Origin: Leisingera sp. M658
GTDB lineage: Bacteria > Pseudomonadota > Alphaproteobacteria > Rhodobacterales > Rhodobacteraceae
Direction: 5' to 3'
DNA: 64,000 bases
NCBI RefSeq assembly: GCF_025144145.1
Contig: NZ_CP083546.1
Span: 2,682,501-2,746,500, forward strand
Shown here piece after piece: positions 19,964-54,608 of the stretch. Under the pieces are notes generated by a model, which made no database searches, had not been told where the DNA came from, and worked only from the letters and a program-made list of their open reading frames with translations. Made by a program: the position numbers and the translations under genes. Position 1 is the first letter of the stretch. Each line of letters begins with the position of its first letter.

Positions 19964-20326
19964 CACGAAGCGCCTCAATACATGCGGGGCTTTGCGCCCC
20001 TGTTTCTTGGAGCCTGGAACAGGCCCGCATTATGTCTTTGCGCCGGTTAGATCCGGCTGATTTTTTGCGGGGCAGCCTGCCCCGGATTCTGCTGGGCATC
20101 CGCCCTGTATTCTGCCGGGCATCCGCCCCGGACTCTGCTGGGCATCCACCCTGTGCATCGGCATAGAATTGCCGCCTCTTCGGCACCCTACCGCCCAAAA
20201 TCTTACCGGGGCGTTAATGATGCTTTTACCACGTTTATCAATTGCCGCTGCCCGCGCCCCTCCGGAGCTTTATGGTCACCTCTAGCTGCGGCAAGCGAAG
20301 CCTTTGTCAGCACTCGGGTTTTCCAG
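19964..20326. other. murB-ddl intergenic region
   Basis: 363 bases without a recognisable gene. It contains a GC hairpin (about 20069-20083) beside a T run and three 23-nt tandem repeats at 20084-20152. A promoter for ddl-ftsQ-ftsA is plausible but I see no clear boxes. Confidence 0.6.
20084..20152. repeat. three 23-nt tandem repeats
   Basis: Three units begin at 20084, 20107 and 20130. Each carries TCTGCYGGGCATCCRCCC with 2-4 differences. 23 is not a multiple of three, so the repeat is not a coding one. Confidence 0.8.
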
Positions 20327-38296: not shown

Positions 38297-38800
38297 TCAA
38301 ACGCCTCCGGCGCCATCTAGGAATTCCAGGGGATCGAAATCCTCGGGCAGGTCTTCCATCAGTTTCTCGGCTTCCGCCATTTCGACCTCTTCATAGGTCC
38401 CGGGGTTCCAGATCTGGAAGGTATCGCCGGACGCAATAAAGAAAGCCTCGCCATCCAGGCCGATCTTCTGGCGCAGCTTGGCAGGCAGCACAAGGCGGCC
38501 GGTCTCATCCACGTTGGTCGGCAAGGATTGGCCGTTGAACATGCGTTCCAGGATCTTGCGCGGTTTGGAGCCGCGCGGCAGGGCGGCGATCTTGGCGTCC
38601 ACCTCGTCGATGGCTTCCATTGTATAGCATTCCAGGAACGGGCGGCGGTGATTGCCGTAAACGATGACCAGTTCGGGGCTGTCGCCGGATTTCCAGTTGG
38701 GGTCGGCGGCCTCCAGTACACGGCGGAAAGAGGCCGGAATTGACACCCGCCCCTTGCTGTCCACCTTGTGGTGGCTTTCGCCTCTGAACCTGCGGCCCAA
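38297..38800 (-). CDS. mraZ: transcriptional regulator MraZ
   Basis: A 167-residue AbrB-like DNA-binding regulator of the dcw operon. Two SpoVT/AbrB halves are visible: FRGESHHKVDSKGRVSIPASFRR near the start, and NVDETGRLVLPAKLRQKIGL in the second. The TTG at 38800 is chosen because AGGA lies about 8 nt upstream and the protein then begins LGRRFRGE as usual; the ATG at 38878 would add 26 unrelated residues. MraZ proteins bind TGGG direct repeats upstream of their own gene, and the long leader here contains many GGG repeats. Confidence 0.93.
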   Translation of the reverse strand: MGRRFRGESHHKVDSKGRVSIPASFRRVLEAADPNWKSGDSPELVIVYGNHRRPFLECYTMEAIDEVDAKIAALPRGSKPRKILERMFNGQSLPTNVDETGRLVLPAKLRQKIGLDGEAFFIASGDTFQIWNPGTYEEVEMAEAEKLMEDLPEDFDPLEFLDGAGGV

Positions 38801-39064
38801 CTTACCGTTCCTTTTCCGCGCGTCCCTCGCGTAATTCCGATCCCCAGAATGAAAAGGGGCGGGTTGATCTGCTGCCACTGATCAACCCGCCGCCTTGGCC
38901 CGCTATGCGGGATGTCCGACTGCGCACGCCACCTGGGGGGATGTCTGCTCGCTCGCGCGCCGGATCTCTTGGTTCGATGAAAGCGAAGGCCTGTATGAAA
39001 CCTGCTCTTTTAGTTTGGCTTGGGGTCGTTTGGCGCCCCGTCCCTCGTCTCATTCGATGTAATA

Positions 39065-39086
39065 GGGATACTATGGGAAATGATGG
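39065..39086 (+). promoter_or_regulatory. candidate MraZ-type boxes (plus orientation)
   Basis: GGG at 39065 and 39075 and GG at 39085 form 10-bp direct repeats (gggatactatgggaaa, then tgatgg). This fits the TGGGN-N5 repeat bound by E. coli MraZ. They sit about 265 bp upstream of mraZ, in the orientation opposite to the gene. Confidence 0.4.
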
Positions 39087-39243
39087 TCCTGCAACTGTTT
39101 TCTGCCGGAAATCATCGAACGGCTGCCAACAGCAACAGAGATTCGCAAGAGATTCGTGGTGATATTGAGGTAAAATCGCGAACTTGTTGTGCATCACTCA
39201 ATCGCAAACACCAAATATAGAGGCGAGTTGCACCTGCAATTTT

Positions 39244-39259
39244 TTTCCCATAGTTTCCC
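39244..39259 (-). promoter_or_regulatory. candidate MraZ-type boxes (minus orientation)
   Basis: On the minus strand gggaaactatgggaaa, two GGG spaced 10 bp. It differs in one base from the plus-strand motif at 39065-39080, so the two form a widely spaced inverted pair. Confidence 0.4.
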
Positions 39260-39404
39260 GCGATTCGACATGAAGACTCACTTCAGCTGCGGATATTCCC
39301 CTTACGTTCGCATCTCTCCGCAAAGGAAGCGGCGGAATACTCCGGCATCAACGCCTCAAAACCGCGTGATTCGCATCTTCAAGAGAGGCGTGTGGCAATT
39401 CGGG

Positions 39405-39540
39405 CCATGATTTCCCATGACGCCCATGAATTCCCGCAAGTCCCGTGAATTCCCAAGCGTCCCATGCAATCCCGCCGGCCCCATCCTGTCCCATGCGGGG
39501 CCAGCTGTCCCGCAGGTTCCCGTACCGGGCGGGAAACCCC
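39405..39540 (-). repeat. GGG-motif array with 9/10-bp spacing
   Basis: On the minus strand, (T/C)GGG motifs recur with alternating 9- and 10-bp steps, making a 19-bp higher-order unit. The plus-strand CCC (or CC) triplets end at 39406, 39416, 39425, 39435, 39444, 39454, 39463, 39473, 39482, 39492, 39502, 39511, 39521 and 39540. About 13 copies are present. The sequence between the GGGs varies, while the spacing is kept. It lies between the mrp terminator and mraZ. Confidence 0.85.
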
Positions 39541-39571
39541 ATCCGCACCCAAAACAAAGCGAGCAAACAGC

Positions 39572-39596
39572 AAAAGGCCCGCCAATCAGGCGGGCC
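39572..39596 (-). terminator. rho-independent terminator after mrp
   Basis: Stem ggcccgcc 39576-39583 with ggcgggcc 39589-39596, a 5-nt loop, and a T run on the minus strand at 39572-39575. It is 45 nt after the mrp stop. Confidence 0.88.
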
Positions 39597-39640
39597 ATCC
39601 AGGACAGTATATATAGAGAGTGCGGGGAACCCGCCGGGAG

Positions 39641-40705
39641 TCAGGCCATGCCGCCGCCGATCAGACCCTCGGCAATCCGCGCATAGGCCTGCGCCATTGG
39701 CCCCTCGCCCGCCGCGATGGGTGTACCGCTGTCGCCGGCCAGCCGGGTTTCCAGGTCAATCGGCAGCGCGCCCAGCAGCGGCAGGCCAAGCGCCTCCGCC
39801 TCAGCCGCGACACCGCCATGACCAAAGATGTGATGCTCACCGCCGCAATCGGGGCAAGTGAAAAATGACATATTCTCGATCAGACCCAGCACAGGGGTTT
39901 TCAGCGTCTTGAACATATCCATTGCCTTGCGTGCATCCAGCAGTGCCACATCCTGCGGAGTGGAAACCACGATGGCGCCGGTCAGCTCTGTCTTGGTGCA
40001 AAGCGTCAGCTGCACGTCGCCGGTGCCGGGCGGCAGATCGACGATCAGCACGTCCAGCTCACCCCAGTTCACCTGCCCCAGCATCTGCTGCAGCGCGCCC
40101 ATCAGCATCGGGCCGCGCCAAACCACGGCCTTGCCCTCCTCCAGCATAAAGCCGATCGACATCAGGGTGACGCCATGGGCGTGCAGCGGTTCGATGATCT
40201 TGCCGTCGGGGCTGGCAGGGCGGCCCTTGGCGCCCATCATCCGCGGCTGGGAGGGGCCGTAGATATCCGCATCCAGCAACCCGACCTTGCGGCCCTGCCT
40301 GGCCAGCGCCACAGCGAGGTTCGACGACACGGTGGATTTCCCCACCCCGCCCTTGCCGGACCCAACCGCCAGAATGCGTTTTACGCCTGCGGGTTTCAGC
40401 GGCCCGGCCTGCGGTTTCGGATGGCCGCCGACCTTGAGGCTGGGCGCGGGCTGCTGCGCGGCATGGGCGGTGAGCGCGGCAGAGACGGTTTCAACCCCGT
40501 CCAGCGACAGCACCGCGGCCTCGGCAGCCTTGCGCAAAGGCTCCATCAGTTTGGCGATCTCGGGGCTGGGCGCCTCGATCACAAAGCTCACCTTGCTGCC
40601 GTCGATACGCAGGGCGCGCAGCATATCGCGCGATACCAGCGTGCCGCCGTCCGGCAAGGCCAGCCGCTCCAGTATTTCGCGAATCTGATCCTGAGTGACC
40701 GCCAT
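39641..40705 (-). CDS. mrp: Mrp/ApbC Fe-S cluster carrier ATPase
   Basis: A 354-residue P-loop protein that carries or transfers Fe-S clusters. An N-terminal MIP18-like domain (about 1-80) is followed by the NTPase with Walker A GKGGVGKST at 117-125, LLDADIYGPSQPRMMG, and VDLPPGTGDVQLTL. The cluster-binding CPDC lies near residue 283. It is monocistronic with its own terminator. Confidence 0.95.
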   Translation of the reverse strand: MAVTQDQIREILERLALPDGGTLVSRDMLRALRIDGSKVSFVIEAPSPEIAKLMEPLRKAAEAAVLSLDGVETVSAALTAHAAQQPAPSLKVGGHPKPQAGPLKPAGVKRILAVGSGKGGVGKSTVSSNLAVALARQGRKVGLLDADIYGPSQPRMMGAKGRPASPDGKIIEPLHAHGVTLMSIGFMLEEGKAVVWRGPMLMGALQQMLGQVNWGELDVLIVDLPPGTGDVQLTLCTKTELTGAIVVSTPQDVALLDARKAMDMFKTLKTPVLGLIENMSFFTCPDCGGEHHIFGHGGVAAEAEALGLPLLGALPIDLETRLAGDSGTPIAAGEGPMAQAYARIAEGLIGGGMA

Positions 40706-51632: not shown

Positions 51633-51707
51633 GCGGGCGTAGCTCAGGGGTAGAGCATAACCTTGCCAAGGTTAGGGTCGGGCGTTCGAATCGCCTCGCC
51701 CGCTCCA
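51633..51707 (+). tRNA. tRNA-Gly(GCC), copy 1
   Basis: 75 nt with CCA encoded. Acceptor GCGGGCG pairs with CGCCCGC, the D-arm is AGCTCAGGGGTAGAGC, the anticodon loop TTGCCAA has GCC, and the T-arm has GTTCGAATC. It is identical to copies 2 and 3. A terminator hairpin follows. Confidence 0.98.
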
Positions 51708-54224: not shown

Positions 54225-54315
54225 CGCTTATCCACAGATACCTGCGCAACTCTTCAAATTTCCTCTTGCGGCCCGTTTGGGAACGCCCTAAACACCGGCT
54301 CATCGAATGGCAGCG

Positions 54316-54390
54316 CGGGCGTAGCTCAGGGGTAGAGCATAACCTTGCCAAGGTTAGGGTCGGGCGTTCGAATCGCCTCGCCCGCTCCAT
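54316..54390 (+). tRNA. tRNA-Gly(GCC), copy 2
   Basis: 75 nt, identical to copy 1 including CCA. Some 30 nt of upstream flank (acgccctaaa, then ctcatcgaatggcagc) also resemble the flank of copy 1. It follows vsr by 91 nt. Confidence 0.98.
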
Positions 54391-54533: not shown

Positions 54534-54608
54534 GCGGGCGTAGCTCAGGGGTAGAGCATAACCTTGCCAAGGTTAGGGTCGGGCGTTCGAATCGCCTCGC
54601 CCGCTCCA
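54534..54608 (+). tRNA. tRNA-Gly(GCC), copy 3
   Basis: 75 nt, identical to copies 1 and 2. The gap of 143 nt to copy 2 contains only the copy 2 terminator. Confidence 0.98.

Follow-up and report, generated by a model that had tools for sequence, protein, structure and literature searches.

The mraZ upstream region and its GGG array

In the window, by which we mean the whole stretch of 64,000 nucleotides analysed, mraZ lies on the minus strand and is preceded by an mrp/apbC-like gene. The features at this locus are as follows, with positions counted in the window.

38297..38800, minus strand: mraZ (NCBIfam NF001476, 224.6 bits with the cut-off at 162), with an inferred TTG start
38860..38889, minus strand: UpsM-type leader terminator hairpin, with arms CGGGTTGATC / GATCAACCCG followed by CCCCTTTTC
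39065..39080, plus strand: candidate promoter operator GGGATACTATGGGAAA, its boxes facing the other way from those of the array, located where the UpsM/mraZ start is expected
39208..39220, minus strand: conserved CTATATTTGGTGT / CTATATnTnGTG element, often near-palindromic and tentatively NrdR-box-like
39246..39259, minus strand: middle pair of MraZ-type boxes GGGAAACTATGGGA, in array orientation, located with the class matrix and a genome pattern search
39295..39309, minus strand: LexA-like site GAAC-N7-GAAT, its start 50 bp ahead of the middle pair
39404..39550, minus strand: distal array of 13 GGG boxes with a degenerate ATGGCC box at its 3' end
39576..39596, minus strand: likely terminator of the upstream mrp/apbC-like gene (39641-40705), from a terminator scan

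The last of these places the array between transcription units. MraZ heads the division/cell-wall (dcw) cluster in many bacteria, and its loss in E. coli has no apparent phenotype (PMC8475190). In R. sphaeroides, mraZ is transcribed from the UpsM promoter, 268 nt upstream of the gene, and approximately 1 in 100 transcription events passes the UpsM terminator, the role of which in the leader RNA is described in the same work (PMC5089854). Since a sigma-70 scan of 38700-39700 found no promoter, the position of the UpsM/mraZ promoter is taken here from R. sphaeroides. Within the genus, the UpsM-type leader and its terminator (38860-39060) show strong conservation, which agrees with the sRNA of R. 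sphaeroides; at gathering score, Rfam 15 gave nothing across 38860-39060, and a simple terminator scan did not report the hairpin at 38860..38889.

On the minus strand, the GGG motifs of the array start at 39550, 39540, 39521, 39511, 39492, 39482, 39473, 39463, 39454, 39444, 39435, 39425 and 39416, that is, in successive steps of 10, 19, 10, 19, 10, 9, 10, 9, 10, 9, 10 and 9 bp. Two ATGGGA-type boxes with a 10-bp step between them form the repeating unit; as read from the genus alignment, this pair returns at 19-bp intervals towards the 3' end of the array and at 29-bp intervals towards its 5' end. Two places on this ladder, at approximately 39531 and 39501, hold no GGG in the focal genome, and the matching columns have GGG in 0/20 and 1/20 genomes of the genus, respectively (0.0 and 0.05). 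The array had originally been described as about 13 GGG motifs in alternating 9- and 10-bp steps across 39405-39540; the number and the location stand, while strict alternation is confined to the 3' half and the 5' edge lies about 10 bp earlier, at 39550. The accompanying estimate was about 600 bp to the start codon; 616-750 bp separate the array from the likely mraZ start (TTG at 38800, inferred).

The 13-GGG array is real and beyond chance. Its longest strict 9/10-bp run comprises nine boxes, whereas 20,000 Markov-1 resamples of the 236-bp intergenic piece gave runs of seven at most, reached in four resamples, and 40 resamples of the entire window (one strand) gave a maximum of four. When the 171-bp array region was compared with the 4.89-Mb genome, the sole match was the array itself, and a four-GGG pattern occurs at 10 places genome-wide, three of them inside the array, against five for its reversed control. 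Read as a simple tandem repeat, the array is weak, because Tandem Repeats Finder gives a single row there (39405-39435, score 30). A coding reading was rejected, as boxes 9 and 10 bp apart do not follow the period of codons, and the short ORFs there overlap in several frames. An RNA element was likewise set aside: the array strand together with the mrp terminator folds with a z-score of -2.09, yet the array lies behind that terminator. No Rfam match was found at the array.

Conservation and age of the array units

A search of 21 Leisingera genomes, including the focal one, found mraZ in 20, and the array lies upstream of the gene at all 20 loci, in chains of 7-13 GGG. Within this set of 20, divergence per genome pair over the last nine boxes is 0.065 in the GGG columns and 0.381 in the filler; filler identity between genomes averages about 62%, while the spacing of the boxes is fixed. 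When the mask is shifted circularly, the contrast between GGG and filler columns never exceeds 0.248, against the observed 0.315. The array had been proposed as a target for a protein with multiple sites, on the expectation that relatives would keep the GGG spacing and let the filler diverge, and the alignment bears this out.

The main alternative at this level is a functionless 19-bp minisatellite. A 19-bp period does prevail, and there is the weak tandem-repeat row at 39405-39435. The history of the units speaks otherwise. The filler of 19-bp units at the same position is 0.638 identical across genomes, as against 0.458 between different units within one genome and 0.459 between different units across genomes; because same-position units across genomes are more alike than different units within a genome, the units have not been recopied. 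Copies within a genome are no more alike than copies between genomes, the GGG columns are nearly invariant, and the array is present in all 20 genomes. We therefore reject a recent minisatellite, as the copies do not owe their likeness to duplication, and regard a functionless one as scarcely credible. Among the outcomes that the original prediction had named as speaking against it were absence from close relatives and whole-unit copying with identical filler; neither of these is seen. The alignment indicates that the units are old and are kept for their GGG and their spacing.

Box sequence, probable binder and three site clusters

E. coli MraZ is known for TGGGN repeats upstream of its own operon. 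B. cenocepacia MraZ binds a fragment with four 7-nt repeats and 3-nt spacers that lies over the start site (PMC7761207), and mycoplasma mraZ is preceded by AAAGTG[T/G] direct repeats (PMC8475190). The Leisingera sites resemble the MraZ operators of all three in being short direct repeats upstream of mraZ. To place the array box in a broader context, we compared it with the mraZ upstream regions of 29 further Alphaproteobacteria, in most cases a single genome for each family; these were the 29 with the best scores among 100 other matching genomes. A CCC chain with a score of at least 3 was found upstream of mraZ in 20 of the 29, and the matrix built from 80 boxes of these 20 genomes reads ATGGGAt...ATG. 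Steps in these class operators are 10 bp in 57/60 cases and 20 bp in 3/60, with 9 bp in 0/60, and strict 10-bp ladders in the 29 genomes have five boxes at most; the array steps in the 20 Leisingera genomes comprise 78 of 10 bp, 74 of 9, 11 of 19 and one of 18. The array units tGGGAa.tCATGGG and CATGGGa agree with the class box, and when the 1500 bp upstream of the focal mraZ are scored with the class matrix, nothing passes 5 bits except the middle pair (-459/-449), the promoter pair (-275/-265) and five boxes of the array. Many of the outer array boxes score poorly on this matrix.

The presence of the box largely follows that of the gene. A pair score of at least 21.8 was obtained in 27 of the 29 class genomes with mraZ, 20 of which had trained the matrix. 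Fourteen class genomes had no mraZ match, of which 13 could be scored before rsmH (the fragmented G364 was left out), and 11 of these 13 have no good pair there (at most 11.7 bits); in one of the 11, G423, Pfam MraZ matches weakly (E 0.065). Of the two that do have a good pair, L152 carries a divergent mraZ ORF at 941-1495 (Pfam MraZ, E 8.7e-8) that is missed by TIGR00242, a model whose cut-off was reached by no genome in the class search, the focal genome included, and L155 is an exception with no visible mraZ. As the box equals the class-wide sites upstream of mraZ and is mostly missing where mraZ is missing, MraZ is the most likely binder of the array. MraZ is a ring-forming AbrB-like protein, and solved structures are available (1n0e, 9qlr, 9qlg and 9sx6).

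A different regulator, such as NtrX or CenR, is improbable as the occupant of the array. ChIP-seq places an NtrX site upstream of R. sphaeroides mraZ (PMC7240162) and a CenR signal at the mraZ promoter of that species (PMC9275681); their reported motifs, however, are GCA-N9-TGC for NtrX (PMC7240162) and TGA-N8-TGA for CenR (PMC9275681) rather than GGG at 10 bp, and neither fits the array. The CenR paper itself states that the motif is lacking near the start site of these promoters (PMC9275681), and the array box matches sites found upstream of mraZ across the class and absent from most genomes that have no mraZ.

Across the family, the MraZ-type boxes fall into three clusters: the distal array (approximately -750 to -610), the middle pair (-459) and the inverted promoter operator (-275). 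Upstream regions were sampled from 88 other genera, and then from 40 more, out of 295 genomes of the family with mraZ (two of which belong to the focal genus). All three clusters are present in 20/20 Leisingera genomes and in 36/88 other genera, where the far, middle and promoter clusters were detected in 59, 56 and 74, respectively, the far pair being below the detection threshold in 29/88. Pairs in the opposite orientation occur at the far, middle and promoter positions in 0, 3 and 2 of the 88 genera, and a control stretch (-1400..-900) has a pair in 0 (plus) and 2 (minus) of them. In the whole genome, the patterns GGGANNNTATGGGA and GGGAWWTCAYGGGM occur twice each, always at the mraZ locus, and their reversed controls do not occur (0). 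The array does not overlap the promoter: it lies approximately 340-475 bp upstream of the promoter operator, and only the operator at -275 stands at the expected start.

A three-box array pattern retrieved 23 records from the GTDB genome collection, 22 of which carry Rhodobacteraceae names or labels; all 21 records whose fetched stretch includes mraZ have it on the same strand, 617-724 bp downstream, and in the remaining two the stretch ends before mraZ. One record, JAHVJD010000007.1, is labelled Nocardioides marinus DP1N28-1 and has mraZ and an array like those of Leisingera; it seems to be mislabelled.

Runs of GGG might also fold into a four-stranded G-quadruplex that controls mraZ. By the usual rule, a quadruplex requires G3-N1-7, and the 6-7-nt gaps in the 3' half of the array satisfy it at the level of sequence, which makes folding there a candidate. 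The S. aureus mraZ promoter provides a precedent (PMC11796246). A quadruplex would, however, need neither an ATGGGA consensus nor base-exact spacing nor helical phasing to another site (see below), and in most other genera the far region has chains of just 2-3 GGG (range 1-6 in the 88 genera). We consider this explanation very improbable.

Helical register and a looping model

Measured between the last far box and the last middle box, the distance is 176-178 bp in 19/20 Leisingera genomes (in L004, also of the genus, it reads 291 because the last pair falls below the threshold), and in other genera it falls into groups near 115, 124, 135, 145, 156, 167 and 189 bp. For this distance we obtained R(10.5)=0.788 (n=35 genera) with a best period of 10.70, against a null maximum of 0.660. 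The control distance from the promoter box to mraZ gave R=0.044 (n=74 genera), and that from the mrp stop to the first far box gave R=0.168 (n=48), its best period lying below the null 95% level and thus not periodic. The far-to-middle distance therefore changes by whole helical turns of approximately 10.5 bp, whereas the promoter-mraZ and mrp-array distances do not. Of the 88 genera, 35, 47 and 53 enter the distance counts D1, D2 and D3, respectively; the others lack one of the pairs (far, middle or promoter), and three family genomes are also outside these counts because their middle boxes number more than two.

Whether the quantisation reflects a choice among boxes 10 bp apart was checked in three ways. 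Genomes with a single pair give a slope of 10.74 ± 0.15 bp per turn (n=27), above the 9.5 or 10 that would result if the distance groups were only a matter of which ladder box has survived. When all GGGA sites 95-205 bp before the middle pair are taken with no choice of box (53 genomes, 128 sites), R(10.5)=0.594, a value reached by 0/5000 block-shifted nulls; GGGA positions measured from mraZ show some periodicity (R=0.230). Finally, the phase was fixed beforehand and applied to two held-out sets, a second genus with 29 genomes, 28 of which have all three clusters, and 40 further genera, 13 of which have all three, in which the GGGA sites gave mean cosines of 0.526 and 0.620, respectively, with 0/5000 nulls reaching either value. 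Usable genomes numbered 24 in the second genus, where five of the 29 have three middle boxes and one has no far pair, and 20 in the 40 further genera, of which 23 have exactly two middle boxes and 20 of those have sites to test. The second genus is not a fully independent hold-out because one member, L025, sits in the first set. Promoter-to-mraZ distances in the held-out sets gave R=0.076 (second genus) and 0.284 (40 further genera, n=30). Off-phase distances do occur, for example 100 in one held-out set and 83 and 160 in the other. On a tree of the leader, a minimum of 22 changes in turn class is counted over 40 labelled rows; the tree used 5/20 Leisingera genomes, distances above 200 were dropped and 2/55 inner branches are starred, and the independence of these changes is uncertain because this phasing tree is weakly resolved.

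The distance from the middle pair to the promoter operator is approximately 183 bp in most genomes, approximately 172 in seven genera and 193 in one, with degenerate boxes allowed for by eye; part of this quantisation is an artefact of which box was found, because in 8/47 genomes (by eye) the promoter operator ends in a degenerate box. Within the array, only the 3' part is in phase with the middle pair, because a period of 19 bp is about 2 bp short of two turns (21 bp).

LacI, GalR and AraC are known for multi-operator looping, in which operators up to hundreds of bp apart lie in helical register. The inter-operator distance in whole helical turns that marks such systems is found here, with off-phase exceptions, and the distant sites at mraZ are likewise kept in register; unlike the systems of LacI, GalR and AraC, Leisingera has a long array in place of a single distal operator. 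We therefore suggest, with a probability of roughly 0.6, that the array is a distal MraZ operator which, by looping to those closer to the gene, makes autorepression stronger. What the locus itself provides is the same box in three clusters with fixed orientations, conservation and helical register, from which we infer MraZ as the binder, the formation of a loop and its repressive effect. Register between sites 115-190 bp apart, with an inverted third site approximately 183 bp further on, is what looping by an oligomer predicts, and the inverted operator at 39065-39080, where the expected start would be, suits autorepression.

In this model, MraZ would act as an autorepressor produced from the first gene of the dcw cluster. 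One subunit of oligomeric MraZ would contact each ATGGGA-type box, the working unit being the pair 10 bp apart, and MraZ bound to the array would meet MraZ on the middle pair and the inverted promoter operator, with the DNA between them looped out. The loop would raise the local amount of MraZ at the UpsM/mraZ promoter and thereby tighten autorepression. The box pair appears to have been multiplied about sevenfold in Leisingera. Thirteen or more boxes are not needed for a loop, and looping does not explain their retention; the high number may raise occupancy or buffer MraZ.

It is in the number of boxes that a sponge has its appeal. Were the array to bind MraZ without looping and titrate the free protein, dcw repression would respond sharply to MraZ level or dosage, and both the high and variable number of boxes (7-13 GGG in the genus, 1-6 in the far region of the 88 genera) and the drift of the outer boxes out of helical phase would be explained. 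A sponge needs no fixed place, single orientation or helical register with the middle pair, however, and we consider it unlikely.

The Leisingera promoter operator resembles the MraZ site of B. cenocepacia in being placed at the expected start (PMC7761207). The Leisingera array differs from known MraZ operators in its far greater size, in its orientation, which is opposite to that of the promoter operator approximately 340-475 bp downstream, and in its 9-bp steps between pairs and its helical phasing to the middle pair. The locus is the same as that of the Rhodobacteraceae UpsM leader, with a long mraZ leader and an intrinsic terminator (PMC5089854); MraZ sites and the DNA upstream of the UpsM promoter are not discussed in the portions of that paper available to us. 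Neither a distal MraZ array nor MraZ looping was found among the matches listed in a search of titles and abstracts in the openly licensed PubMed Central literature. The array would add distal control to the dcw cluster, where control as described in the cited text ends at the UpsM promoter region. An expanded and phased array makes the action of MraZ testable, namely whether the oligomer bridges or wraps DNA, and it also opens the question of why there are 13 boxes here and ladders of at most five in other Alphaproteobacteria (29 genomes).

Further elements around the middle pair

The site at 39295-39309 is LexA-like in its resemblance to the LexA motif GAAC-N7-GAAC. The strict motif is present in 16/20 Leisingera genomes, and in 20/20 if GAAT is allowed (the relaxed form); it was found in 10/88 other genera, and other spacers gave 0-2. 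Its start precedes the middle pair by 50 bp in 20/20 genomes of the genus and by 49-50 bp in 8/9 other matches. This site suggests a possible SOS input at the dcw region.

The element at 39208-39220 resembles an NrdR box. It lies 29 bp after the last middle box in 20/20 Leisingera genomes and 20-40 bp after it in 25/53 other genera, compared with 1/20 and 0/53, respectively, in a 600-bp control. In some genera a second copy seemingly follows about 31 bp further on (by eye).

A more elaborate model, which we put forward tentatively and as probably going too far, would make MraZ an architectural looping repressor, with an array of 13 or more boxes that would nucleate a large MraZ nucleoprotein, which would dock over whole turns onto a fixed control block and the UpsM/dcw promoter. 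The block would consist of the LexA-like site, 50 bp, the MraZ pair, 29 bp and the NrdR-like site, and the division genes would respond jointly to the level of MraZ, to DNA damage, to the supply of nucleotides and to methylation by CcrM.

GANTC, presumably the CcrM-type site, is clustered at 39140-39372, with raw counts of 5.35 per 370 bp in the 20 Leisingera genomes and 2.4 in the 88 other genera; on the mrp side, the raw counts are 0.15 (genus) and 0.36 (88 genera) per 500 bp. Elsewhere in the window, the strongest tandem repeat lies at 20066-20154 (23 or 46 bp, score 114-143), and three tRNA genes at 51633-51704, 54315-54386 and 54534-54605 have identical Rfam scores (65.4 bits) and are presumably copies.
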